38,598 nt of DNA from the NCBI GenBank assembly GCA_903928915.1, contig CAIYSL010000055.1, positions 1 to 38,598 of the forward strand, in the 5' to 3' direction. Positions within the stretch are counted from its first letter, which is position 1; each line of letters begins with the position of its first letter. A program made the position numbers and the translations under genes. The DNA comes from an uncultured Syntrophobacterales bacterium (GTDB lineage: Bacteria > Desulfobacterota > Syntrophia > Syntrophales > UBA5619). This document shows positions 5,210 to 17,197 of the stretch, piece by piece. The notes beneath the pieces were generated by a model that was not told where the DNA came from, made no database searches, and worked only from the letters and a program-made list of their open reading frames with translations.

Positions 5210-5698
5210 TCATTTGTCGCCCGTATCCGGGTCCTTGCGATTCTTGTCGTAGGTATCCAGGTCCGGCGTGTCGATGCGCACGGTCCCGTCTTCGTTCATC
5301 CGGATGAACGTCACGGCCGAGAGGATCGAATACCAGACGCCGATCGGCTTGCCCTGGGGATCGCGCATCTCATGGCCGTACTGGTACTCGTAGAACTCAA
5401 AGGCCCTGGTCTTCATCCCCTGGACGATCTCCTTCATCCGCGCCGGGGTCATCTCCACCTCGCGCCAGAGCGTTGCCGGGTCGAGCCGGTACTGCCGGTG
5501 CAGCCCCATCAGGGCATTGGGGTGCAGGTTCGCGCCGCTGATGTAGTACCGGTACAGCGGATTGACCTCGTACCGCTCGAAGGCAGCGGTCACCTCCCGG
5601 CTGGTTTCGAGCTTTCCGTAATTGCGCAGCAGACCGGCGCAGGCCGCAACGGCCAGACAGAGCGCGATCGTCAGATACAATCCATAGCTTTTTTTCAT
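5210..5698 (-). CDS. Small lipoprotein of unknown function
   Basis: 162 residues starting MKKSYGLYLTIALCLAVAAC. The N-terminus is a lipoprotein signal peptide with lipobox AVAAC (lipid cysteine at residue 20), so the mature protein should be anchored in the inner or outer membrane. The start is set by a strong AGGAGGGG eight bases upstream; the longer open frame is a GC-rich run-on. The mature part is soluble and charged, contains YYISGANLHPNALMGLHRQYR and ends in a hydrophilic DTYDKNRKDPDTGDK tail. No family was recognised. It lies 89 nt downstream of the hydrolase gene and may share its transcript. Confidence 0.8.
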   Translation of the reverse strand: MKKSYGLYLTIALCLAVAACAGLLRNYGKLETSREVTAAFERYEVNPLYRYYISGANLHPNALMGLHRQYRLDPATLWREVEMTPARMKEIVQGMKTRAFEFYEYQYGHEMRDPQGKPIGVWYSILSAVTFIRMNEDGTVRIDTPDLDTYDKNRKDPDTGDK

Positions 5699-5787
5699 CG
5701 CTGTCCCCTCCTTGTCTTCTGCTCGGGCAGGCACTCCGGCTGAATCCTCAATCCTCCCTTCAGTACGGCTGCGGCCGGCCGTGCGGG

Positions 5788-6468
5788 TCATCCGAACTGG
5801 GCCAGGTACTTGCGGATGTACGCCTCCACGCGGCCGGCGGGCTGGAATATCCCGAAGTGCCCCTCGCAGAGGATATCCGCCTTCAGCCCGAGGAGCCGTT
5901 CCATCGACGCCCGCCACTGGTCGATGTCCGACCCGAAGGCCGGCAGAAATGGGCCGTGGATGTCCTGGCCGAACAGGACCCGCTTACCGCCGCGCTCCAG
6001 CCTGAGGGCGATCGAACCGGGGGTGTGGCCGGGGATGTGGACCCAGTGGAGGGTCTCCCCGCCGAAGCCGATCCCCTCCCCTTCTCCGGTCAGCCGGCGG
6101 TCGGCGGGGGTCGGCGGAAACGCGATCCCGTACCAGTCGGCAGCCGTGCGGATGGGGTCGCCCGTCTCCAGGGCCTCGGCGTCGAGCTCGTGGATCAGGA
6201 GCCGGCACCCGAGCCTGCTCCGCAGCTCCGGCGCGGCGCCGATGTGGTCGATGTGGCAGTGGGTGAGGATCAGCGTGGAGATCGCCGCCGGGTCGAGCCC
6301 CTGCTCTTCGATATTGTCGATGATCCGCTCGACGCTACGGCCCGCGCCGCAGTCGATCATCACCAGCTCCCCGGCGAAATCGATCACGAAAGCGGTGGCG
6401 TCCTCGGTGCGGGAGACCTCCGGTCCGGCTACCAGGTAGACCCCCGGGGCGATCAGTTCAGCACCCAT
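5788..6468 (-). CDS. Metallo-beta-lactamase-fold hydrolase
   Basis: 226 residues of a glyoxalase-II-like MBL-fold enzyme. The dinuclear metal site is complete: THCHIDH (His70, His72, Asp74, His75), HIPGHTPG (His148), GQDIHG (Asp169) and CEGHFG (His204). The protein is probably cytoplasmic because no signal peptide is present. The family hydrolyses thioesters, lactones or phosphodiesters; the substrate cannot be read from sequence. Its length fits single-domain members. The start ATG is preceded by AGGGAG. It is upstream of the small lipoprotein on the same strand. Confidence 0.88.
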   Translation of the reverse strand: MGAELIAPGVYLVAGPEVSRTEDATAFVIDFAGELVMIDCGAGRSVERIIDNIEEQGLDPAAISTLILTHCHIDHIGAAPELRSRLGCRLLIHELDAEALETGDPIRTAADWYGIAFPPTPADRRLTGEGEGIGFGGETLHWVHIPGHTPGSIALRLERGGKRVLFGQDIHGPFLPAFGSDIDQWRASMERLLGLKADILCEGHFGIFQPAGRVEAYIRKYLAQFG

Positions 6469-6508
6469 GTTCTCCCTTTCCGCAGCGCCGATATCCGAAC
6501 TAAAGAAT

Positions 6509-6532
6509 CAGCCGGAGCGCAGCGATCGGCTG
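6509..6532 (-). terminator. Possible terminator after the lipocalin gene
   Basis: Read on the minus strand, CAGCCG and CGGCTG form a 6-bp stem with a 12-nt loop that can pair internally. It is followed by ATTCTTTAG, a weak U-rich stretch. It lies 19 nt past the lipocalin stop and upstream of the hydrolase start, so it would separate the two transcripts. Confidence 0.4.
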
Positions 6533-6550
6533 TATTGCCTCGTCCGGCAT

Positions 6551-7069
6551 TTACTCATGTGTGACAAATATGAGTTTTTCTGTAGAAAAGCCAAGCGCTG
6601 CCGCTTTTCTTACAAGTCTCTCCTTCAGTTCATCGCCTATTTCAGGTCTTCTCGCTAAAATCCATAAGTATGATTTGTCGGGACCACACACGAGTGAATA
6701 TTGATACCCGTCATGGTCAAGTTCGAAGATGATGTAGGAACCGTAGAATGGCCCGAAGAATGAAACCTTAAGATATCCTTGATCGGGCTGATTAACGAAA
6801 TAGGCCCTTCCTTCAACTTCTTTCCATTTGGCTTCCTTTTCAGAGAAACCGCGGTTCAACACCCTGACACCGCCGTCTTCGCGCAGGCTGTACTGTGCCG
6901 TTACTCGGGTTAACCCTCGTTCAAACGAATGATCCAGTCTGGCAATTTCGTACCACTTCCCTAAATATTTCTGCAAATTGAAATTGCTGACAGGGCTGAC
7001 GTCTGCCGGGATTCCAACGCACCCACCTATAAAAAGAACGAACAAAAGGGATGTCCATTTCAATAGCAT
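6551..7069 (-). CDS. blc: Outer-membrane lipoprotein, Blc-type lipocalin
   Basis: 172 residues. The signal peptide MLLKWTSLLFVLFIGGC carries a lipobox with lipid Cys17. The lipocalin signature follows: YLGKWYEIARLDHSFERG at the start of the barrel, then VTAQYSLREDGGVRVLNRG, and GPDKSYLWILAR near the end. Bacterial Blc binds fatty acids or lysophospholipids at the outer membrane and is induced under envelope stress. GGAGG lies four bases before ATG. Its base composition is clearly more AT-rich than the nucleotide-synthesis genes, as for the adjoining toxin-antitoxin pair, which suggests acquisition. Confidence 0.92.
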   Translation of the reverse strand: MLLKWTSLLFVLFIGGCVGIPADVSPVSNFNLQKYLGKWYEIARLDHSFERGLTRVTAQYSLREDGGVRVLNRGFSEKEAKWKEVEGRAYFVNQPDQGYLKVSFFGPFYGSYIIFELDHDGYQYSLVCGPDKSYLWILARRPEIGDELKERLVRKAAALGFSTEKLIFVTHE

Positions 7070-7110
7070 TTAACCTCCAGAGCCGAACGGTTAGCTCACC
7101 GGGACCCAGG

Positions 7111-7130
7111 TTCACCGGTGATCCGGTGAA
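7111..7130. terminator. Perfect 8-bp hairpin downstream of the toxin gene
   Basis: TTCACCGG (7111-7118), loop TGAT and CCGGTGAA (7123-7130) form a perfect stem 15 nt after the toxin stop on the minus strand and upstream of the lipocalin. There is no U-tract, so it is more a transcript-end stabiliser or processing hairpin than a strong intrinsic terminator. Confidence 0.5.
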
Positions 7131-7144
7131 GCGATTCGTCATCG

Positions 7145-7435
7145 CTATTTTTCAGGTTCATCAGGAAACTGAGCACCATGCCATACAGCCACAATCCATA
7201 AGCTATCGCCTTTAATCTTATAGAAAAAACGATACGGATTTACGATAACTTCACGAAAAGGGAGTTCCGGAAACTCCGGCAGTTGTCTTCCTGACTCTGG
7301 AAATTTATTGAGACGGGAAAGCGATTTCTCCACCTTCTGGCGAAAGGCTGCTGCTGCAGACTGCCTGTCGCGGTTAATACAGGCAATGGCTTCAAGAAAC
7401 TGGCGGCGAGCTGTAGGCGTAAATAGGATTCTCAA
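7145..7435 (-). CDS. ParE/RelE-family toxin
   Basis: 96 residues with the layout of the RelE/ParE superfamily: N-terminal MRILFTPTARRQFLEAI, a central helix pair rich in Arg and Lys, then FPELPFREVIVNPYRFFYKI and the C-terminal strand SLWIVAVWHGAQ. Such proteins cleave ribosome-bound mRNA (RelE) or poison gyrase (ParE); the sequence does not settle which, though the RxVxVNPYRFFY strand resembles ParE. The start is a TTG that overlaps the antitoxin TGA (TTGA), implying translational coupling, with GAGG in the antitoxin 3' end as ribosome-binding site. Confidence 0.88.
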   Translation of the reverse strand: MRILFTPTARRQFLEAIACINRDRQSAAAAFRQKVEKSLSRLNKFPESGRQLPEFPELPFREVIVNPYRFFYKIKGDSLWIVAVWHGAQFPDEPEK

Positions 7436-7713
7436 AGTTTGGCAGCCTCAAGATAACGGTCAGCTTCTTTCAGCACCTCGTCGAGATCATGGCCGAGTCC
7501 TGCCGCTAATTCTTTCTCGCCCTTGGCCAGCAAACGCAGAATATCCATTTCGTTCTGTACGCTCTTATATACTTCCATGCTAACCATGACGGCAGCCGCT
7601 CTTCCGCGCTGAGTAATGAAAACAGGTTCCCTCGATGACGAAACACTCTTCACCACGCCGCTGGCGTTTTGTCTAAGATCGGAAATGGGTATAATTCTTG
7701 GTGCGCGTGGCAT
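7432..7713 (-). CDS. Phd/YefM-family antitoxin
   Basis: 93 residues. The N-terminal half, IIPISDLRQNASGVVKSVSS then EPVFITQRGRAAAVMVSMEVY, is the standard Phd/YefM DNA-binding and dimerisation fold. The C-terminal half is an acidic helix that would wrap the toxin. The gene precedes and overlaps the toxin, as in most type II systems. AGGAGGT sits five bases before ATG. The promoter just upstream contains an inverted repeat placed for autorepression. Confidence 0.9.
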   Translation of the reverse strand: MPRAPRIIPISDLRQNASGVVKSVSSSREPVFITQRGRAAAVMVSMEVYKSVQNEMDILRLLAKGEKELAAGLGHDLDEVLKEADRYLEAAKL

Positions 7714-7741
7714 TGGTTGTACCTCCTGTAAATGTTTCTAT

Positions 7742-7779
7742 TGTACTGTCAAGTGTACATCCAATGGATAGTTTGTCAA
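7742..7779 (-). promoter_or_regulatory. Toxin-antitoxin promoter with overlapping operator
   Basis: On the minus strand TTGACA (7774-7779) and TACACT (7752-7757) are separated by 16 bp. The inverted repeat TGTAC-N8-GTACA (7742-7759) covers the -10 box. A second TTGACA (7746-7751) follows within the repeat. The arrangement fits repression by the antitoxin-toxin complex. Confidence 0.65.
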
Positions 7780-7942: not shown

Positions 7943-8713
7943 TCAGTCCCGCTGGTACCGCTGCACCATCTGTTCCGTTCGGCCCCTCCTGGCCCGGCAG
8001 GCCGCGCTCCGTTCGGTGCTGCACAGGAGCTTGGCCAGGGCCACGCCCGCCACGAACCCCCCCACGTGGGCCCAGAAGGCGACCCCTCCCCCGGCCCCGG
8101 CGAGGGCGGGGATCCCCCCGAGAAGCTGGATGACGAACCAGTACCCCAGCATCAGGAAGGCGGGTACCACGAACCGGGTGATGTAGAACCCGAAGAATAC
8201 CAGGACGTGCACCGGCGCCCGGGGGAACAGGACCGCGTAGGCCCCCATCACCCCGCTGATGGCACCCGAGGCCCCCACCATCGGCACCACGCTCCGCGGG
8301 TCCGTGACCATTTGCAGGGCCGCGGCCGCGACACCGCACAGGAGGTAGAAGAGGATGAAGCGCACCTTGCCCATGGCGTCCTCGACGTTGTCGCCGAACA
8401 GGGCCAGGAACCACATGTTGCCGACGATATGGAACCAGCCGCCGTGCATGAACATCGAGGTGACCACGGACCAGACAGAGGCGTCGGCCGCCAGCACGCA
8501 GGCCAGGCCGTCCCCCAGGGGCACTTTCGTCCCCGGCAGCGCCGTGCCGAGAAGCTCGCCCGGGATCAGTCCATACTCGCAGATCGAGGCGGCCAGGGAG
8601 AAATCGGACCCCAGCCCCTGGATGAACACCCACACCAGGGCGTTGAGGCCGATGATCAGGAAGGTCACCAGGGAGGCGCCCAGGGTGGGATTTTCGTCGC
8701 GCAGAGGAAACAT
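7943..8713 (-). CDS. Rhomboid-family intramembrane serine protease
   Basis: 256 residues with six predicted membrane helices. Catalytic serine is in GASGAISG (Ser149) and catalytic histidine in AHVGGFVAG (His216). The oxyanion-side motif HIVGNMWFL (Asn99) and the hydrophobic helix FILFYLLCGVAAAALQ are in place. The protein cleaves membrane-spanning substrates in the inner membrane. A roughly 60-residue loop between helix 1 and the H-x-x-x-N helix, containing an LGDGLACVL stretch, is longer than in GlpG. The C-terminus is a short basic tail rich in Arg. The gene stands alone; the preceding gene on this strand ends 172 nt upstream, so a substrate cannot be inferred with confidence. Confidence 0.92.
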   Translation of the reverse strand: MFPLRDENPTLGASLVTFLIIGLNALVWVFIQGLGSDFSLAASICEYGLIPGELLGTALPGTKVPLGDGLACVLAADASVWSVVTSMFMHGGWFHIVGNMWFLALFGDNVEDAMGKVRFILFYLLCGVAAAALQMVTDPRSVVPMVGASGAISGVMGAYAVLFPRAPVHVLVFFGFYITRFVVPAFLMLGYWFVIQLLGGIPALAGAGGGVAFWAHVGGFVAGVALAKLLCSTERSAACRARRGRTEQMVQRYQRD

Positions 8714-8885: not shown

Positions 8886-11291
8886 CTAGTTCCAATCCAC
8901 TGCAATAGGATTTGCCTGCCCCGCAGTGATGGTCGTCACCGGACTCCAATACTGGGCTCCTCCCTCGTCAATCCTGAATTTGTAAGAACGGTTCGGAAGC
9001 AGAAATTCTACAGTGCCATCTATATTCGTCGTGCCATGTAAGCCGAGGTAGGAGCCACTGCTGCTGAAAAGATAAACAGGCGCGCCGGAGACGGGACTAC
9101 CGCTCTTCCGTGCTATGATCTGCGCCACCCCATGAGGTATGCTCACCGCAGCATTCTGAAACTGGAATATTTCGGACCAGAACTGGTTTCCCAGGTAGTC
9201 CGCCCTTACTTTGAAGCCCTTATTCGGCAGATCGAATGCTGCCCGTCCGCTACTGTCTGTTGTCTGCACCTTGCCCAGATAGCTTCCCGACGGTGCGAAG
9301 AGGTAGACACTGACCCCAGCGATAGGCTGGGTTCCCTGGTACATTCTTGCGATCGTGATCGCAACTGCCTGGTGCGGAACAGACAGCGCACCGGAGAGTG
9401 TATCGGGAACAGCGAAGATGTCACTCCAGAATTGGTATCCGAGATAGTCTAGCCGGAATTTGTAGCTTCCGCTGGACAGGTTGAACGATACCCGGCCGGC
9501 TGCATCGCTGGCACTTGACATCCCCAGATAGGATCCGCCGGGGCTGAACACATAGGTTCGTACACCCGCTAACGGTTCGCTCCCCCGGTCGATTACCAGA
9601 GTGAATTGTCCGCCGCCCAGGGCGAGCTCGAACGCAGTGGCCGCATTCTGGTTGAGCCCCGCAGTTACCCAGAACTGTCCGCCTTGGTGATCTGCCCGGA
9701 ACTTATATTCGCCCGCAGGCAGTCGAAACTCTGCGATCCCGGCGGCGTTCGTTACGGCCGAGAGTCCGAGGTACGTCCCGGCGGAGCTGAAGACGTAAAC
9801 CGGCACACCCGGGATGTCTTGACCTCCCAGGGTAACATGGACAAGGGCGGTGCCCTCCGGGATGAGGATCGTCATATCCTCCCAGGTGAATGTATCAGTC
9901 CAGAACTGCCGCCCTAAGTAGTCAGCACGCACCTTGCAGGGGAGCTGCGGCAGGTTGAACATCGCGCGACCGTTTGCGTCGGTTGCTGAATGCACGGATA
10001 AAAATGCCCCGGTAGCACCGAAGAGATACATGGGGATGCCTGACTTGGGCAATAGTCTGCCCGCAAGAGAACCCAGAGCCGTGATCGTGACACTCCGGTG
10101 GGTAATCGTCCTGGTGAGGCTCATCGTCGTTGGCACCGCCACCACCTCTGTCCAGAACTGCGAGCCGAGGTAATCGATGCGAAACTTGTAATTGCCGTCG
10201 GCGAGACTATAGAATGCCTGCCCGCTGTTGTCCGTTGTCTTGGAAAGGCCGAGGTATGAGCCTGCCGCGCTGAATGCATAGCACTTGACGCCGGTCAGCG
10301 GGTCCGAGTCGCCTTTGAGTACCGTCAGGGTAAACGATCCGCCGCCCGTGTTGATGGCTATCGGCTTGAGCTGATCCGCAACGAGCGTCTCTTCGGGACT
10401 CCAATACTGGTTGCCAAGGTAATCGGCACGGAATTTATATGAAGCCGCAGGCAAGCGGAATGTCGCCTTTCCGGAGGCATCCGTTGTCCCGGTCATCCCG
10501 AGGTATGAACCCGATGGTGTGAAAACATAGACGTTGACACCGGCGATGGATTGACCGCCCTGAATAACCGTGATCTCCGCATCGGCCATGGGAACATTGA
10601 CTACCGTATCCTGCGCATTGAACACGGAGGAGAAATATTGCCTGCCCAGGTAGTCTGCCCGAACCTTGTAGTCCTTGCCGGGCAGCGAGAAGCTCACCCG
10701 CCCGTCACCTTCGGTTTTTTGACTCAAGCCCAAATAAGAATTTGCAGGTGAAAAGAGATAGACGGTGACCCCGGCAAGCGGCGAGGTAACTCCCTGGCAG
10801 GTGCTGTTGACGGTTACGCCGACCGGATGGTGCGGTATCGTCAGATCGATGCTCTTCGCCGTGGTTACCTGCACCGTGTCGCTCCAGAACTGGTATCCGA
10901 TATAGTCGGCGCGAAGCCTGTAATTACCCGGGGAAATGGTGAATCGGACGGCACCGGCGGCATCGGTCGTCTGCGTCTTTCCCAGATAACTTCCGCTCCC
11001 GTTGAACAGGTAGGTGTTGATTCCCTGCAAAGGGTGATCGGCGTCCTTACGAACCGTGACCTGGAGCTGGACCTCATTGGTCGCGGCTGTGGTCCTCTGC
11101 TGGATCCGGTTGCCGACCGCATCGTACTGATATTCGACGATGCTCCCGCTCGTCGTGTTCTCGACGCGTATGAGGCGATTCAGTTCGTCATAGGTGTAAT
11201 TGATCGTGTCGGTAAGAGAAGGGCGAGGGGTGACGAGGGTAAGCGCGATAACGATTGCCAGGAATATCGTATACCGTAACTTGATATCCAT
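8886..11291 (-). CDS. Secreted YD-motif protein with nine carboxypeptidase-regulatory-like repeats
   Basis: 801 residues from ATG 11291, the start that gives a signal peptide at once (MDIKLRYTIFLAIVIALTLV). Residues about 28-65 hold two YD motifs (YTYDELNRLIRVENTTSG and YQYDAVGNRIQQRTT) like those of the upstream RHS protein. The rest is nine tandem copies of a module of roughly 75-85 residues with the pattern PLAGV.VY.FSP.GSYLGLS, then TTD..GRA.F.LP.G.YK.RADYLG.QFWS. The module resembles carboxypeptidase regulatory-like or transthyretin-type beta-sandwiches, which act as surface spacers or ligand-binding units. No enzyme domain is visible. It is the last gene of the island, 68 nt after the small membrane gene, and may be part of the same transcript. 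Adhesin or surface fibre is an inference. Confidence 0.85.
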   Translation of the reverse strand: MDIKLRYTIFLAIVIALTLVTPRPSLTDTINYTYDELNRLIRVENTTSGSIVEYQYDAVGNRIQQRTTAATNEVQLQVTVRKDADHPLQGINTYLFNGSGSYLGKTQTTDAAGAVRFTISPGNYRLRADYIGYQFWSDTVQVTTAKSIDLTIPHHPVGVTVNSTCQGVTSPLAGVTVYLFSPANSYLGLSQKTEGDGRVSFSLPGKDYKVRADYLGRQYFSSVFNAQDTVVNVPMADAEITVIQGGQSIAGVNVYVFTPSGSYLGMTGTTDASGKATFRLPAASYKFRADYLGNQYWSPEETLVADQLKPIAINTGGGSFTLTVLKGDSDPLTGVKCYAFSAAGSYLGLSKTTDNSGQAFYSLADGNYKFRIDYLGSQFWTEVVAVPTTMSLTRTITHRSVTITALGSLAGRLLPKSGIPMYLFGATGAFLSVHSATDANGRAMFNLPQLPCKVRADYLGRQFWTDTFTWEDMTILIPEGTALVHVTLGGQDIPGVPVYVFSSAGTYLGLSAVTNAAGIAEFRLPAGEYKFRADHQGGQFWVTAGLNQNAATAFELALGGGQFTLVIDRGSEPLAGVRTYVFSPGGSYLGMSSASDAAGRVSFNLSSGSYKFRLDYLGYQFWSDIFAVPDTLSGALSVPHQAVAITIARMYQGTQPIAGVSVYLFAPSGSYLGKVQTTDSSGRAAFDLPNKGFKVRADYLGNQFWSEIFQFQNAAVSIPHGVAQIIARKSGSPVSGAPVYLFSSSGSYLGLHGTTNIDGTVEFLLPNRSYKFRIDEGGAQYWSPVTTITAGQANPIAVDWN

Positions 11292-11359: not shown

Positions 11360-11599
11360 TCAGGGGTAAATCATGAATTCACCACCTATTGAAAAACAGA
11401 CACTGATACTTAAGGACACCCCAGTCCCGGTGAAGATTATCCAATTGACCCATTCTGGCCCATGGTCACCCCAGCCAAATAGCAAATGCAGGACAACACG
11501 TAGGAGAGTGCCAAAGATGAATAATCCGGCAAACAGCCCAATAGCCACTCCCAAAATGATCAATACTATTCTCTGTATAATCACTCTATGTGCAGCCAT
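11360..11599 (-). CDS. Small two-helix membrane protein, possible second immunity protein
   Basis: 79 residues from ATG 11599 (MAAHRVIIQRIVLIILGVAIG). The longer frame runs back into the upstream gene and is less likely. Two membrane segments are visible, about residues 8-35 and 50-70, separated by a loop with GWGDHGPEWVNW. The ribosome-binding site is weak, so translation may depend on the upstream gene 25 nt away. No family was recognised. Its position directly after the RHS toxin and the four-helix protein suggests an immunity or accessory role. Base composition is AT-rich. Confidence 0.6.
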   Translation of the reverse strand: MAAHRVIIQRIVLIILGVAIGLFAGLFIFGTLLRVVLHLLFGWGDHGPEWVNWIIFTGTGVSLSISVCFSIGGEFMIYP

Positions 11600-11624: not shown

Positions 11625-12041
11625 TTACACTTGCTGCTCTGGTTGCCTAAAGATAAATAGGACCATAAATTGCGTGATTGCCATGCCAACGATGCCGATT
11701 ATTATTCCCCAAACAATGCCTGACGACAACGTACCGAAAAAGGTGAACGGGTCATAGAACAACGGATACCGTCCTAGACCTAAGCTAAAAGCCATGCCCC
11801 ATATGAATCCTACTCCAAAAGTAAAATAGAAGCCGACCCACCTCAGTTGCTTCTGCGTGGCTTCCTTCTTAATTCTTACTCGGATTTCCCAATACAATAA
11901 AGCGAGGTAGACACAAAAAAGTCCCACCTCTACGATAAGATAAAGTATCTCCATATGTTGGGGTACAATAATGTTCTTATTCAAGAGAAGTGTGCCGTAG
12001 AAAATCGTCCCCCATATGAGTAGCTTGGGAAGCATGCTCAT
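11625..12041 (-). CDS. Four-helix membrane protein, candidate immunity protein of the RHS toxin
   Basis: 138 residues with four predicted membrane helices (about residues 5-22, 30-50, 66-88 and 100-130) and a basic loop RVRIKKEATQKQLR between helices 2 and 3. The ATG overlaps the last 4 nt of the RHS gene, so the two are translationally coupled. In polymorphic toxin loci the gene immediately after the toxin normally encodes its immunity protein, and membrane-embedded immunity proteins usually protect against toxins acting at or from outside the inner membrane. The family was not recognised. The gene is strikingly AT-rich compared with the YD-repeat core. Confidence 0.75.
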   Translation of the reverse strand: MSMLPKLLIWGTIFYGTLLLNKNIIVPQHMEILYLIVEVGLFCVYLALLYWEIRVRIKKEATQKQLRWVGFYFTFGVGFIWGMAFSLGLGRYPLFYDPFTFFGTLSSGIVWGIIIGIVGMAITQFMVLFIFRQPEQQV

Positions 12042-15000
12042 TTCAATCCCTCTTTGAACGGCCGATTCCTTCTCTTATCGAGTGACTTCTTGAACTCCGA
12101 TAGCCACAATCTGGTCACTCTTTCCATGGTCTGGTCTCGCAGACTGCCTTCACAATATTTATCAGGTTCATCACCCATAGCATAATGCTTCGAAGGTATG
12201 ATACCCATGTGTGAGAATGAATCTTGAAGGGAATGTAAGAAACGACCGAAAGATGCTGCATTCCCAATAGCGACGTCCCTTAGTAAGTCTTGCTCAGCTG
12301 TTCCCTGAGGGAAATGATATGTCAAGAACGTGCCAACAACATAAGCTCCCCATTCATCTGGTCGTTGAAAGTAGGATTCATCAGTCGATTGGTTTGCTGT
12401 AGCAATAATTCGTGCCGTAGCCGGATCTATGCCAGCCTGCAATGCCCACATCTCGGTCTTATAGTAATGAACATCCCAGCCGTACAGGCCCCAGGGATCA
12501 ATCCAGTTCATCGGATTATTTTTCACGTACGCGTACAGGTTAACATCCCCGCCTACGAATCCGATGGGATCCCTCTGGAGGAACCGACCAGCCTTCGGGT
12601 CGTAGTATCTTGCCCGGTAGAAGTAGAGACCGGTCTCCGGATCATACTCCCGCGCGGTGTATGTGTACGGCTGAACAACGGCCGGCATATCGTTCAAGAT
12701 GTTGCCGAAAGCGTCGTACCGGTAGCTCTGCACCACGCTGCCGGTACTGTCCGTCAGGGCAATGATCGATCCCAAGTCGTCTGCGTGGTAGCAATACAGT
12801 TGCCCATCCTTCTCCATTGCCAGCGGTTCGTCGATGCCGGGACCGTGGATATACCGCGTTACCACCGCTCCCGTCTGATCGTATTCCAGGAGGATGTCCT
12901 CACCCTCGTAAAGATAATGGCTGATCGTTCCGTTCACATTCTTCTCGATCCGCCGGCCCAGAGGGTCGTAGGTGTACGTGGTTACTTGGGTCCCCCCGTT
13001 TGTCTCCACACGGACGAGACGCTGCTCGTCGTCGTAGGCGTAGACCGTCTCCCCGGCTGTATCGGTCTTCCGGGTCCGGTTTCCGTTCGGGTCGTACCCG
13101 TAGGTTGTTGCGTTGAGCGTCAGCAGCTCATTGGCCGTGCCGTAGGTCATCGTCTCGGTACCCGCTGCTTCGGAACCGGGCGATGCGGTATCGGTCTGGG
13201 TGAGGCGATTGTCCACCGGATCGTAGGTATAGTTGATCTCGGCCAGCACCGTCCCTCCTGATCCGGTGTGTTTCAGTCGCAGGAGGTTGCCGTTGTTGTC
13301 ATAGCTGTATGCAGCGGCCGTACCGTTCGGCATGGCAAGGCCGGTCCTCCGGCTGTTGGCATCGTATCCGAAGCTGAAGGTCGCGTTATTCGCCGCGATG
13401 GCGTTCAGCCGCCCTGCTGCGTCATAGCTGTAGGCGATCGTCCGGCCGTCAGGCGTGACGGTCGCAGTCCTGTTTCCGGCCGGGTCGTACTGATACTGTA
13501 TCGACCTGTTGTTCGAGTCGGTGACACTGGTCAGCCTGTTGTTAGCATCGTAAGCGAAGCTGTAGGCTATGGCGCTGTTGGCGGCATCGATCAGGTTGCC
13601 GTTGGCGTCATACTGATACTGGGTGGTACTGCCGTCAGGGTACTGCTTGCGGGTCAGGCGGTTCGCGGCATCGTAGGTGTAGTTGATCGCCCTGCCGTCG
13701 GGTTTGGTCCCGGTAAGGAGTCGCCCCCGCGCATCGCGGGTGAGGTTGGTTTCCCGGCCATTCGGATCCGTCTCTCTGATCAGCCGTCCGGCAGGATCAT
13801 AATCATACCGGGTGATACGGCTCAGGGTGTCCGTCAATGAGGTGAGTTTCTCAGCTCCTCCGCATCCGCTGCCGCAGCTGGCAGGTCCGTAGCTCAGTTG
13901 AGTCAATTTGTTCAGGGCATCGGTAATCCGGGTAAGCTGTCCGCGGTAGTTGTATTCGTACCGGGTCGGCCGGCCATTGGCGTCGGTCGCCGAAAGGATC
14001 TTGCCGCGAAAGTCGTAGGTGAAGGTGGTAACATTACCCTTGGGATCGGTCGCCTGGATCATCTGATGAAGAGGGTTGTAGACAAACCGGGTGAGGTGGC
14101 CGAGCGAGTCGGTCATCGTCAGTCGGTTGCCGACGGCGTCGTAGGTAAAACTGGTTACGTTGCCCAGGGGATCGGTGATGGATATGAGGTTGTTCTGGTT
14201 ATCATAGGTGGACGCAGTCGTCCGGTTATTGGGGTCGGTCATCGCGATGACATTCCCTTTGGTGTCGTATTGGAAGGTTGTCGTGCCGATCGGCGCGGCC
14301 ACGCTGGTGAGGTTCCCCCTTGCGTCGTAACCGTAGCTGGTCACGCCTCTCTTGGGGTCGGTGCTGCGGGTAACCAGATTCAGACTGTTGTATTCATAAG
14401 ATCTGAGGCTGACTACCGCGCCCTGGGGGTCTTTCAAGGTCACGGAGGTGACGTTGCCGTTGGCGTCATGGGTGTAGCTCGTTACGCTCCCGTCGGGTTC
14501 TACGGTGGAGGTAAGATTCCGCTTCTGATCGAAAAAAAATCCGGTGGTATTGCCCAGCGGATCCGTCTTCTGTGTCTTTACGGCGAGCGCATGATCGTAC
14601 CGGTACGTCCAGACGCCGCCGTCCTTTTCGGTGATGGTGGCGGCTCCGGGTTGGGTGTACGCCATCTTCCGGGTCCCGTCGGGTGTGGTTGATCTCCTTA
14701 TCCAGCCATTTGTGTAATATTCGTAGGTTATCGTGTTCCCCGCCGGGTCGGTCTTGGCCTGCATCAACCCATTGCCATCGTAGGTGTACTGCCAGGTATA
14801 GCCCAAGGGGCTGCTGATCGAGGTAAGAAGGCCGTCTGTATAACCCAGATTGTACACCCTGCTGTCGGCATCGCTTATCGAGACAATCCTTCCGTACATA
14901 CTGGAGATGGCGGTAACCCTGCCGTTGGGGTCGGTGACACTGGCCAACTCACCGCCGCTGGTGTAGACCAACGTAGTCGCGTTGCCATTTCGGTCCGTTA

Positions 15001-17197
15001 TCGAGGTAAGGCGACCGGCCTGATCGAAATGCTGGATCAATCCATTCTTGACCGTTCGGGCAAATGAGGCATCCGAGTTCTTGATGATCTGCGATGTGTC
15101 GCCACTGACGGCATCGGGAAGATAGATGCCGTTCGACAGATAGAAGGGAAGGATATTTCCATCGCCGGTCTTGAGCTTCAGGTAAACATTACTGCTCACG
15201 GGTATCAGTAGTTTAAGGTTGTAGTTGTGGGTCCATTTCTTCCCCAAAGGACCATTGTAAGGATCAAGGCTGTTGTAGGTCAATGTCAAGCCTGCCACAT
15301 GCTCAGAAAAATGCAGGTTGCCGCTCTTGATGTTGGCTGCGGATTCCCAATCGGCATTGGGTGAACGAGGATCGTTCGGACAACTGCCGCCGATATCGTT
15401 CGTTTCCGGATCCGGAGACCAACTACCCGATATCCCTTCCAGACCTGTCATCAACATGGCCGGGCAGCAGGAATGGTACTTCATTATGTTGGATCTCACA
15501 TCCTCCCAACCCAGTTCTACCAGGCGTGCGTATGCTGCTTCGGTACCGCAATTTGACCAAAGGTAAGTCTCCATGCAGTGTGCGCAGCTGAACCCTCCGT
15601 TCGCCAAATTCGACTGAGTCCCTGCCCGACACTCCGTTATCTTGTTACTCTGACAGTTATACTGCTTCTTAAGAATATAACAATTGCACAGATTGAGGAG
15701 GCAACCACACTGGTTCAAGTCTTCCCATGTTTTCATCGCGACTTCAGTTGGATTGTTGGACTGCGTCACCGCTATGGTAAGAAGGTCGGATTGTCCGCAG
15801 GAATCGACCAGACTTATGGTGGGGGTATGCTGGCAGTAGGTGTTTGCCGCTGGTGCGGTAAAAATGATCGAATCCCCGGTCACGGCGGAAAGGGTTCCGC
15901 TGCCCCTCGCGATTGCCCACCTGTAAGGACCACCGCATCCCCCTAATGCAGTTAACTGTTGACTTTCATTGAGCAGCATCTGCGGCTTGTAACTACCATT
16001 GTCTTTCAGTGCCAGAGGATATTCAATGACCGGAGCACCAGCGGTTCCAGTCCGCGCAACCGACCGATCGGATAAGGTCCCCGTGGCGGTCCTGTCGGAC
16101 ATGGAGAAGTTGCCATCGTTGTTCCCAGAGCTGGCAGTTGCTTCTAGTCGTGCACCGTTTCGATAAATAGATGATCCTTGACCGGTAGCTGTGATACTAC
16201 CGGTACTCGCCGGATCGATCGTGCTCTCGGCGGGTTCACCGGTGCTTCGCAGCATTCCGCCAATCGTCGGAAACGCGGAGGGGATCTTCGGGTTGTAGGC
16301 GATGGTCCAGTCGCCGAATGCCGTCGCAGTATTCATTTCTTCATAGGCGATCCTGAAATAGCCCGCCTCTGCCCAGTCGACGCCCCAACTGCCTTTTACA
16401 GTGAATGCCTGATCTCTGTCATCATAACCGACGATCAGGGCTGCATGGTATCCTACAAAATCTCCCCAAACATGCGAATAAATCCCGGAGTCGTAGTAAA
16501 AGAAGTCGGTATTGACCGCCATGAGCGTAACCAGGGGCCCATATCCGTAGAGGGCCTCCTTGATAGCTGCGGCGCTGGGTGCGACGCGGGACCAGCCGGG
16601 AATGGCATAGGCTTCTGATGCCCAATCGGGATTGCCGTTGGCGCATGAACCGTTCGATGCGGTGAACGGGGCGAAGTCTTCGGGAGGGAGGCCATAATTG
16701 CTGATAAAATCGGACGCCAGATCAATGTAGCCCGCATCACTTTTCCCTGCATTACTGCAGGCCAGGACCTGCTCGGAGAGGTCGAGCTGCGCACCGGGGG
16801 CACTTTGAGTAATCAGGACCTTGGATTCCAAGGCTGCTGAAATCGCGAAAGCCCAACAGAGGCCGCAATCGCCCTGATCCTTGACCGGCGTGACGAAGTT
16901 GTTACCGCTGTAATTCCGCCAGTCGAGCCGGGTAGGTAAAGGGGAAGATGTGCGGGACAAGACACGTTGAGTGAACGAAAATGACGGGAACCTTGAACCG
17001 AGTCGCTTGTTGCGCTCCGCCGGAGTGAGACTGGAAATAGATGTCTGCTTTGCGGTCCACCGGGAGTCTTGCCGGCTGATAGCCCGGGTGACTTGTTCAA
17101 ATTCGGCGCTGTCGGCAAGAACTCCGGACACAAAAGAGGGAACACTTAACGGAACAACCAGGATAACAGACAACGCAAGAACAGATCGTAGCTTCAT
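12038..17197 (-). CDS. Secreted papain-like / RHS-repeat polymorphic toxin candidate
   Basis: 1719 residues. Residues 1-29 are a Sec signal peptide. Residues 88-300 are a papain-like (C1) domain: QGDCGLCWAF gives oxyanion Gln108, Cys111 and catalytic Cys114, and GYHAALIVGYDD gives His251. The usual Asn of the NSWG motif is Gly269 (KGSWGVDWAEAGYF). Residues 420-480 look Ig-like; 497-578 hold eleven cysteines; 625-665 resemble the DUF6531 leader (SGNLHF, NSLDPYNGPLGKKWTHNYN). About 25-30 YD repeats run from about 690 to 1545, ending in the RHS core signature (YDPETGLYFYRARYYDPKAG, then RDPIGF and NPMNWIDPWGL). The 148-residue tail (1572-1719) has His1577, Asp1606, His1628, His1655, Asp1659 and His1663, an order like zinc-dependent phospholipase C / P1 nuclease ligands. 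The start ATG follows GGAGGATAG. It overlaps the four-helix gene. Confidence 0.9.
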   Translation of the reverse strand: MKLRSVLALSVILVVPLSVPSFVSGVLADSAEFEQVTRAISRQDSRWTAKQTSISSLTPAERNKRLGSRFPSFSFTQRVLSRTSSPLPTRLDWRNYSGNNFVTPVKDQGDCGLCWAFAISAALESKVLITQSAPGAQLDLSEQVLACSNAGKSDAGYIDLASDFISNYGLPPEDFAPFTASNGSCANGNPDWASEAYAIPGWSRVAPSAAAIKEALYGYGPLVTLMAVNTDFFYYDSGIYSHVWGDFVGYHAALIVGYDDRDQAFTVKGSWGVDWAEAGYFRIAYEEMNTATAFGDWTIAYNPKIPSAFPTIGGMLRSTGEPAESTIDPASTGSITATGQGSSIYRNGARLEATASSGNNDGNFSMSDRTATGTLSDRSVARTGTAGAPVIEYPLALKDNGSYKPQMLLNESQQLTALGGCGGPYRWAIARGSGTLSAVTGDSIIFTAPAANTYCQHTPTISLVDSCGQSDLLTIAVTQSNNPTEVAMKTWEDLNQCGCLLNLCNCYILKKQYNCQSNKITECRAGTQSNLANGGFSCAHCMETYLWSNCGTEAAYARLVELGWEDVRSNIMKYHSCCPAMLMTGLEGISGSWSPDPETNDIGGSCPNDPRSPNADWESAANIKSGNLHFSEHVAGLTLTYNSLDPYNGPLGKKWTHNYNLKLLIPVSSNVYLKLKTGDGNILPFYLSNGIYLPDAVSGDTSQIIKNSDASFARTVKNGLIQHFDQAGRLTSITDRNGNATTLVYTSGGELASVTDPNGRVTAISSMYGRIVSISDADSRVYNLGYTDGLLTSISSPLGYTWQYTYDGNGLMQAKTDPAGNTITYEYYTNGWIRRSTTPDGTRKMAYTQPGAATITEKDGGVWTYRYDHALAVKTQKTDPLGNTTGFFFDQKRNLTSTVEPDGSVTSYTHDANGNVTSVTLKDPQGAVVSLRSYEYNSLNLVTRSTDPKRGVTSYGYDARGNLTSVAAPIGTTTFQYDTKGNVIAMTDPNNRTTASTYDNQNNLISITDPLGNVTSFTYDAVGNRLTMTDSLGHLTRFVYNPLHQMIQATDPKGNVTTFTYDFRGKILSATDANGRPTRYEYNYRGQLTRITDALNKLTQLSYGPASCGSGCGGAEKLTSLTDTLSRITRYDYDPAGRLIRETDPNGRETNLTRDARGRLLTGTKPDGRAINYTYDAANRLTRKQYPDGSTTQYQYDANGNLIDAANSAIAYSFAYDANNRLTSVTDSNNRSIQYQYDPAGNRTATVTPDGRTIAYSYDAAGRLNAIAANNATFSFGYDANSRRTGLAMPNGTAAAYSYDNNGNLLRLKHTGSGGTVLAEINYTYDPVDNRLTQTDTASPGSEAAGTETMTYGTANELLTLNATTYGYDPNGNRTRKTDTAGETVYAYDDEQRLVRVETNGGTQVTTYTYDPLGRRIEKNVNGTISHYLYEGEDILLEYDQTGAVVTRYIHGPGIDEPLAMEKDGQLYCYHADDLGSIIALTDSTGSVVQSYRYDAFGNILNDMPAVVQPYTYTAREYDPETGLYFYRARYYDPKAGRFLQRDPIGFVGGDVNLYAYVKNNPMNWIDPWGLYGWDVHYYKTEMWALQAGIDPATARIIATANQSTDESYFQRPDEWGAYVVGTFLTYHFPQGTAEQDLLRDVAIGNAASFGRFLHSLQDSFSHMGIIPSKHYAMGDEPDKYCEGSLRDQTMERVTRLWLSEFKKSLDKRRNRPFKEGLK

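Follow-up and report, generated by a model that had tools for sequence, protein, structure and literature searches.

Rhs polymorphic toxins (Zhang et al., 2012, PMC3482391; Tse15, PMC11461821) combine a YD shell and a core cleavage region with a variable C-terminus and a small variable gene at the immunity position, and the RHS cocoon is a shell made of beta-sheet (PMC11461821). Teneurin-like proteins (TLPs; Raoelijaona et al., 2026, PMC13018210) are also YD-shell toxins with downstream immunity and putative surface display, the evidence for the latter being only bioinformatic by the statement of those authors. The locus studied here lies in a window (the whole stretch analyzed) of 38,598 nucleotides from an uncultured Syntrophobacterales bacterium. 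It shares all of the listed features of the Rhs polymorphic toxins, and adds a third gene, whose predicted exported product is a YD stub that ends in a rod or in a tail of another type. TLPs carry their variable adhesion modules in cis at the N-terminus, whereas those of the window locus are on a separate protein with two YD repeats. Teneurins have a TTR domain with the fold of the window modules, a likeness compared at the level of the module fold only. Prealbumin-like stalks of the CarboxypepD_reg, CnaB, and SpaA types (BaTIE, SdrD B repeats, pilins) have the same fold and form head-to-tail rods, but the window rod is set apart by its higher-order A-B-C period, by the YD pair at the N-terminus, and by its linkage to RHS. 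Dissociated rhs tips (Jackson et al., 2009, PMC2935791) are likewise YD-bearing ORFs located 3' of an rhs gene, but the stubs have a signal peptide, no core or tip, an independent lineage, and conserved tails. The text of PMC3482391 does not mention carboxypeptidase, dockerin, or YD repeat. In the open-access literature, no reports were found that link RHS or YD proteins with carboxypeptidase-regulatory-like domains, dockerin, or Desulfobacterota, and no description was found in which the third gene of an RHS locus encodes a secreted YD stub, so this absence is a weak one. A secreted YD stub acting as an RHS partner is apparently undescribed. It bears on the question of how Sec-exported RHS and teneurin-like toxins are held at the surface and delivered to targets.

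The RHS gene of the window (12038..17197, minus strand) encodes a protein of 1719 aa, composed of a signal peptide, a papain-family peptidase, a YD shell, an RHS core, and a variable C-terminus (PF00112, 6.7e-38; PF05593, 2.1e-117; TIGR03696, 1.6e-25). The YD repeats, RHS-associated core, and variable C-terminus place it among the RHS polymorphic toxins. A similar peptidase-like N-terminus was observed in the RHS gene of locus L015 (genome G042). The variable C-terminal domain, a putative toxin (12041..12484, minus strand), extends 149 aa past the DPxGL core motif and has a weak match to DUF6765 (9e-5). The start of a 138-aa membrane-type ORF (11625..12041, minus strand), a candidate immunity gene, overlaps the RHS stop; its counterparts in other loci occupy the same position and are non-homologous. 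Another membrane-type ORF of about 79 aa (11360..11599, minus strand) is a weak candidate for a second small gene. Across loci, the small ORFs between RHS and stub look unrelated, as immunity genes would. The source genome has a single RHS gene, and the YD genes found in it are this gene and the stub, with no others.

The stub gene (8886..11291, minus strand) is a frame of 801 aa without interruption from its ATG; in its product, a signal peptide and a pair of YD repeats precede nine CPD/TTR modules. An earlier note on this DNA had reported YD motifs and a signal peptide ahead of a repeat array; both are present, and the order can be refined to signal peptide, YD pair, and array. The signal peptide, or N-terminal hydrophobic helix (residues 1-27; 11211..11291, minus strand; helix 2-19 in the model), aligns with the signal peptides of other stubs. 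Export of both the stub and the RHS protein is predicted from N-terminal hydrophobic segments only. The two YD repeats (residues 30-69; 11085..11204, minus strand) match PF05593 RHS_repeat (1.6e-5, residues 34-71), are predicted to form a four-stranded sheet, and are canonical, without an obvious special interface. This was the only RHS_repeat match in the product, and neither TIGR03696 nor an RHS core was matched in it; it lacks the YD shell and RHS core of an RHS polymorphic toxin. The array belongs to the CarboxypepD_reg family (PF13620, 6.3e-47; 158.3 bits against a curated cut-off of 32.3). No obvious sorting tail was observed in the stub. Just 3' of it is a gene for a rhomboid-family protease (7943-8713, minus strand) that scores below the rhombosortase cut-off.

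Nine tandem modules had also been proposed, and a module profile built from the protein itself finds exactly nine, with E-values of about 1e-31 to 1e-38. Self-comparison gives a clear tandem signal (mean pairwise module score of 142, compared with -9 +/- 1.7 for shuffled modules). Identity between module pairs is 31-57%, and an R-x-D-x-x-G-x-Q-[FY]-like motif is present in each copy, starting at residues 100, 184, 261, 344, 428, 505, 586, 669, and 746. Modules in the same phase modulo three are more alike than others (mean identity 44.8 versus 39.9%; rank 3 of 280 partitions), and identity from triplet to triplet is 41-48%. When the nine modules were compared with 31 arrays of other records, 252 of 279 best matches agreed in phase (the null had a mean of 139 and reached at most 156 in 2000 draws), as did 109 of the 136 that were out of register. 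Because of these triplet identities and the phase agreement across records, the repeating unit is best described as an A-B-C triplet of about 243 aa. The three super-repeats comprise modules 1-3 (residues 71-313; 10353..11081), 4-6 (residues 315-551; 9639..10349), and 7-9 (residues 558-800; 8892..9620), all on the minus strand and each in A-B-C order. Three triplets (nine modules) are found in the window and in L018, L019, L022, L024, L026, L028, and L035. The phase is lost partway in several Desulfobacterales arrays and in L034.

The AlphaFold model of the stub has nine beta-sandwiches (mean pLDDT 89.6, pTM 0.47). A low-confidence hinge (66-71) separates the rod from the YD sheet (30-67; strands 30-34, 40-45, 51-56, and 62-67). 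Within each triplet, an unbroken strand spans the second junction (229-244, 473-488, and 714-729), a feature that recurs with the triplet. In fold comparison, single modules match TTR domains of carboxypeptidase N/D (Z about 11 over 75-77 residues, which indicates the TTR-like fold of PF13620) and of teneurins (Z 8-10), as well as CnaB domains, pilins, MSCRAMM B repeats, and TIE. A sequence search of solved structures gave marginal matches only, the best being the B. anthracis TIE protein (0.0099); RHS cores appeared at 0.2 over residues 14-73. The conserved R.DYLG.QFW motif had been taken as a shared ligand site, for which the model offers no support. The motif is predicted to form a beta-hairpin (in module 1, strands 122-130 and 133-136; the other modules have equivalents) and contains R, D, Y, F, and G residues that are near-invariant in every array. 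A fold or packing signature would fit these modelled features at least as well as a ligand site.

The YD-stub family was defined by a signal peptide and a pair of YD repeats joined to an unrelated tail, with the gene placed 3' of RHS in the same orientation; the gene at 8886-11291 has all of these features. The search profile was built from the signal peptide and the two YD repeats (the leader), and neighborhood played no part in selection. The scan found 52 YD stubs; their sources are genomes of Desulfobacterota type and a single Nitrospirae record. Full-length leaders occur in 13 of 155 genomes of the order of the source organism, and about 30 more in 395 genomes sampled across the phylum. 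Of the 49 assessable stubs, 43 have a same-strand RHS gene shortly upstream, with a median gap of 256 bp; among the other six, one has RHS upstream on the opposite strand and five have none in view. Within the order, all 13 stub genomes carry RHS, compared with 35 of the 155 genomes overall (hypergeometric P 5e-10). No stub was detected in 22 of these 35 RHS-bearing genomes; therefore, RHS has no general need of a stub. Stub genomes have 1-14 RHS cores, and 8 of 16 have just one. An N-terminal alignment shows the signal peptide and two YDs leading into different tails, which include CPD rods, CHB_HEX, PKD, Big_5 (Ig), TSP_3, and Dockerin_1. A dockerin-cohesin tether was rejected as a general rule, with cohesin detected in three of the six dockerin-type stub genomes tested. 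The model of a dockerin-type stub has low confidence (pLDDT 65). A C-terminal FPWPMFLPAI motif is common to two stubs (L131 8947-9501 and L139 511-927).

CPD arrays are also associated with RHS in other settings. A scan of named genomes for the array found 37 loci, chiefly in MAGs that carry the labels Deltaproteobacteria, Syntrophaceae/Smithella, and Desulfobacteraceae, plus single records from Nitrospirae, Thiomargarita, Thiotrichaceae, and an archaeal source (one short contig). The survey for co-occurrence that the earlier note had suggested found RHS in the same protein or nearby at 17 of the 37 loci, and at most of the others the record ends within 3 kb downstream of the array. RHS is the gene upstream of the array in five loci (L018, L021, L034, L035, and L053) and the next gene after it in another five (L028, L036, L030, L043, and L044). 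In the last four of these, the array is directly upstream of a giant RHS gene, and for L030, L043, and L044 the RHS repeats fall in the giant downstream frames by coordinates. In seven loci, RHS is within the array protein itself. In L025 and L033, the array separates the last YD repeats from the RHS core; it comes after the YD region in L048, ahead of the RHS core in L032 and L051, and ahead of RHS in L022 and L047. Many Desulfobacterales and Thiotrichaceae proteins (L029, L031, L036, L037, L038, and similar) have a conserved N-terminal region of about 1000 aa, e.g., LCAEVKIEIKQELTLERQAFDAHMRINNGL, ahead of the CPD array.

Because the two-YD tag recurs on many tails behind RHS genes across the phylum, the stub is very probably a dedicated RHS partner. 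A dedicated surface partner had been one of two origins proposed earlier, and it gains support from the stubs 3' of RHS (43/49) together with the CPD rods fused or adjacent to RHS elsewhere. The variety of extracellular tails and the rod fusions into RHS favor a partner by which an extracellular module is linked to RHS. The best reading overall, which we rate as close to an even chance, is a dedicated partner encoded by the third gene of a toxin-immunity locus, with YD docking and tail display. The locus would then comprise an RHS protein that is exported and varies at its C-terminus, a small variable ORF at the immunity position, and the YD stub, and Sec would export both the RHS protein and the stub. 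The two-YD sheet may extend the RHS beta-cocoon by beta-sheet contact at a seam or an open edge. A flexible hinge would join this sheet to the rod, which would serve to display the toxin-loaded shell, space it, or tether it, either at the cell surface or within the matrix. In other lineages, fusion of the rod into the RHS polypeptide may reach the same end in cis. Docking through the YD pair is put forward tentatively as the mechanism. It is also conceivable, although somewhat doubtful, that the family constitutes a phylum-wide secreted RHS adaptor in which two YDs serve as a portable docking tag for many tails, acting on RHS shells in trans as a general means of displaying or anchoring Sec-exported RHS toxins. 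If the partner reading is true, RHS loci would be toxin-immunity-display cassettes. The stub would then account for proteins whose sole annotation is YD-repeat or carboxypeptidase-regulatory-like. As a conserved partner that is short, separable, and tagged with two YDs, it would also be a simple experimental handle.

Among the alternatives, the stub may be an independent adhesin or scaffold, in which the YD pair is a folding or export element, the tail is autonomous, and the link to RHS reflects shared regulation or habitat without a complex. The tails are indeed typical extracellular adhesive or structural domains, and the fold matches are to pilins, MSCRAMM B repeats, TIE, and teneurin TTR domains. 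However, this explanation, which we regard as unlikely, accounts for neither the YD nature of the constant part, nor the near-constant position 3' of RHS, nor the fusion of the same rod into RHS proteins.

A secreted chaperone or extracellular immunity protein, whose YD pair caps or sequesters the RHS shell until contact and so shields the producer, appears more improbable still. In about half of the loci the stub starts within about 250 bp of the RHS stop, which is the usual immunity position, and immunity genes are located directly 3' of bacterial teneurin-like RHS genes (PMC13018210). Yet immunity proteins are toxin-specific, whereas the constant part of the stub is common to loci with unrelated C-termini, and a separate small ORF holds the immunity position in the window, L018, L034, and L021.

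In comparisons of the 44-residue YD segment, 46 of 52 stubs score best against a stub from another locus, above any RHS protein, although selection by the stub profile favors mutual similarity of stubs; the RHS protein of the same locus beats the best stub in 0 of 52 cases. Because stub YDs match those of other stubs and never best match their own RHS, an origin as a broken RHS is rejected. The window stub and its ortholog in G019 differ by a dN of 0.24 and a dS of 1.33 (dN/dS about 0.18), and by this measure the gene is under purifying selection. These comparisons, together with the many unrelated tails, speak against the other proposed origin, a broken RHS gene rebuilt around the array. At the sequence level, the stubs form a distinct, conserved family that recurs directly 3' of RHS genes. 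RHS debris, i.e., a leftover YD pair or displaced tip fused by chance to an array and functionally unlinked to RHS, is very improbable: dissociated core-plus-tip fragments 3' of rhs genes have been described before (PMC2935791) and remnants exist (the last CPD module only at L013 8753-8977, G019 C156; a stub of just 94 aa in L080; in L021, an array gene that is split over two overlapping frames), but the window product is not a core fragment with a tip of the local rhs lineage, and the own-RHS comparison, the dN/dS, and the in-frame tails of 52 stubs across the phylum all stand against it.

The L013 remnant belongs to the second RHS locus of its genome, where the decayed stub follows a small ORF. 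In L021, the split array gene (5268-7774) is followed further downstream by a second stub with another tail (8139-8501). Finally, the RHS-small ORF-stub unit occurs twice in tandem in L015 (G042 C8), where the first stub is interrupted and a shorter RHS gene follows, possibly as a tip-displacement event.
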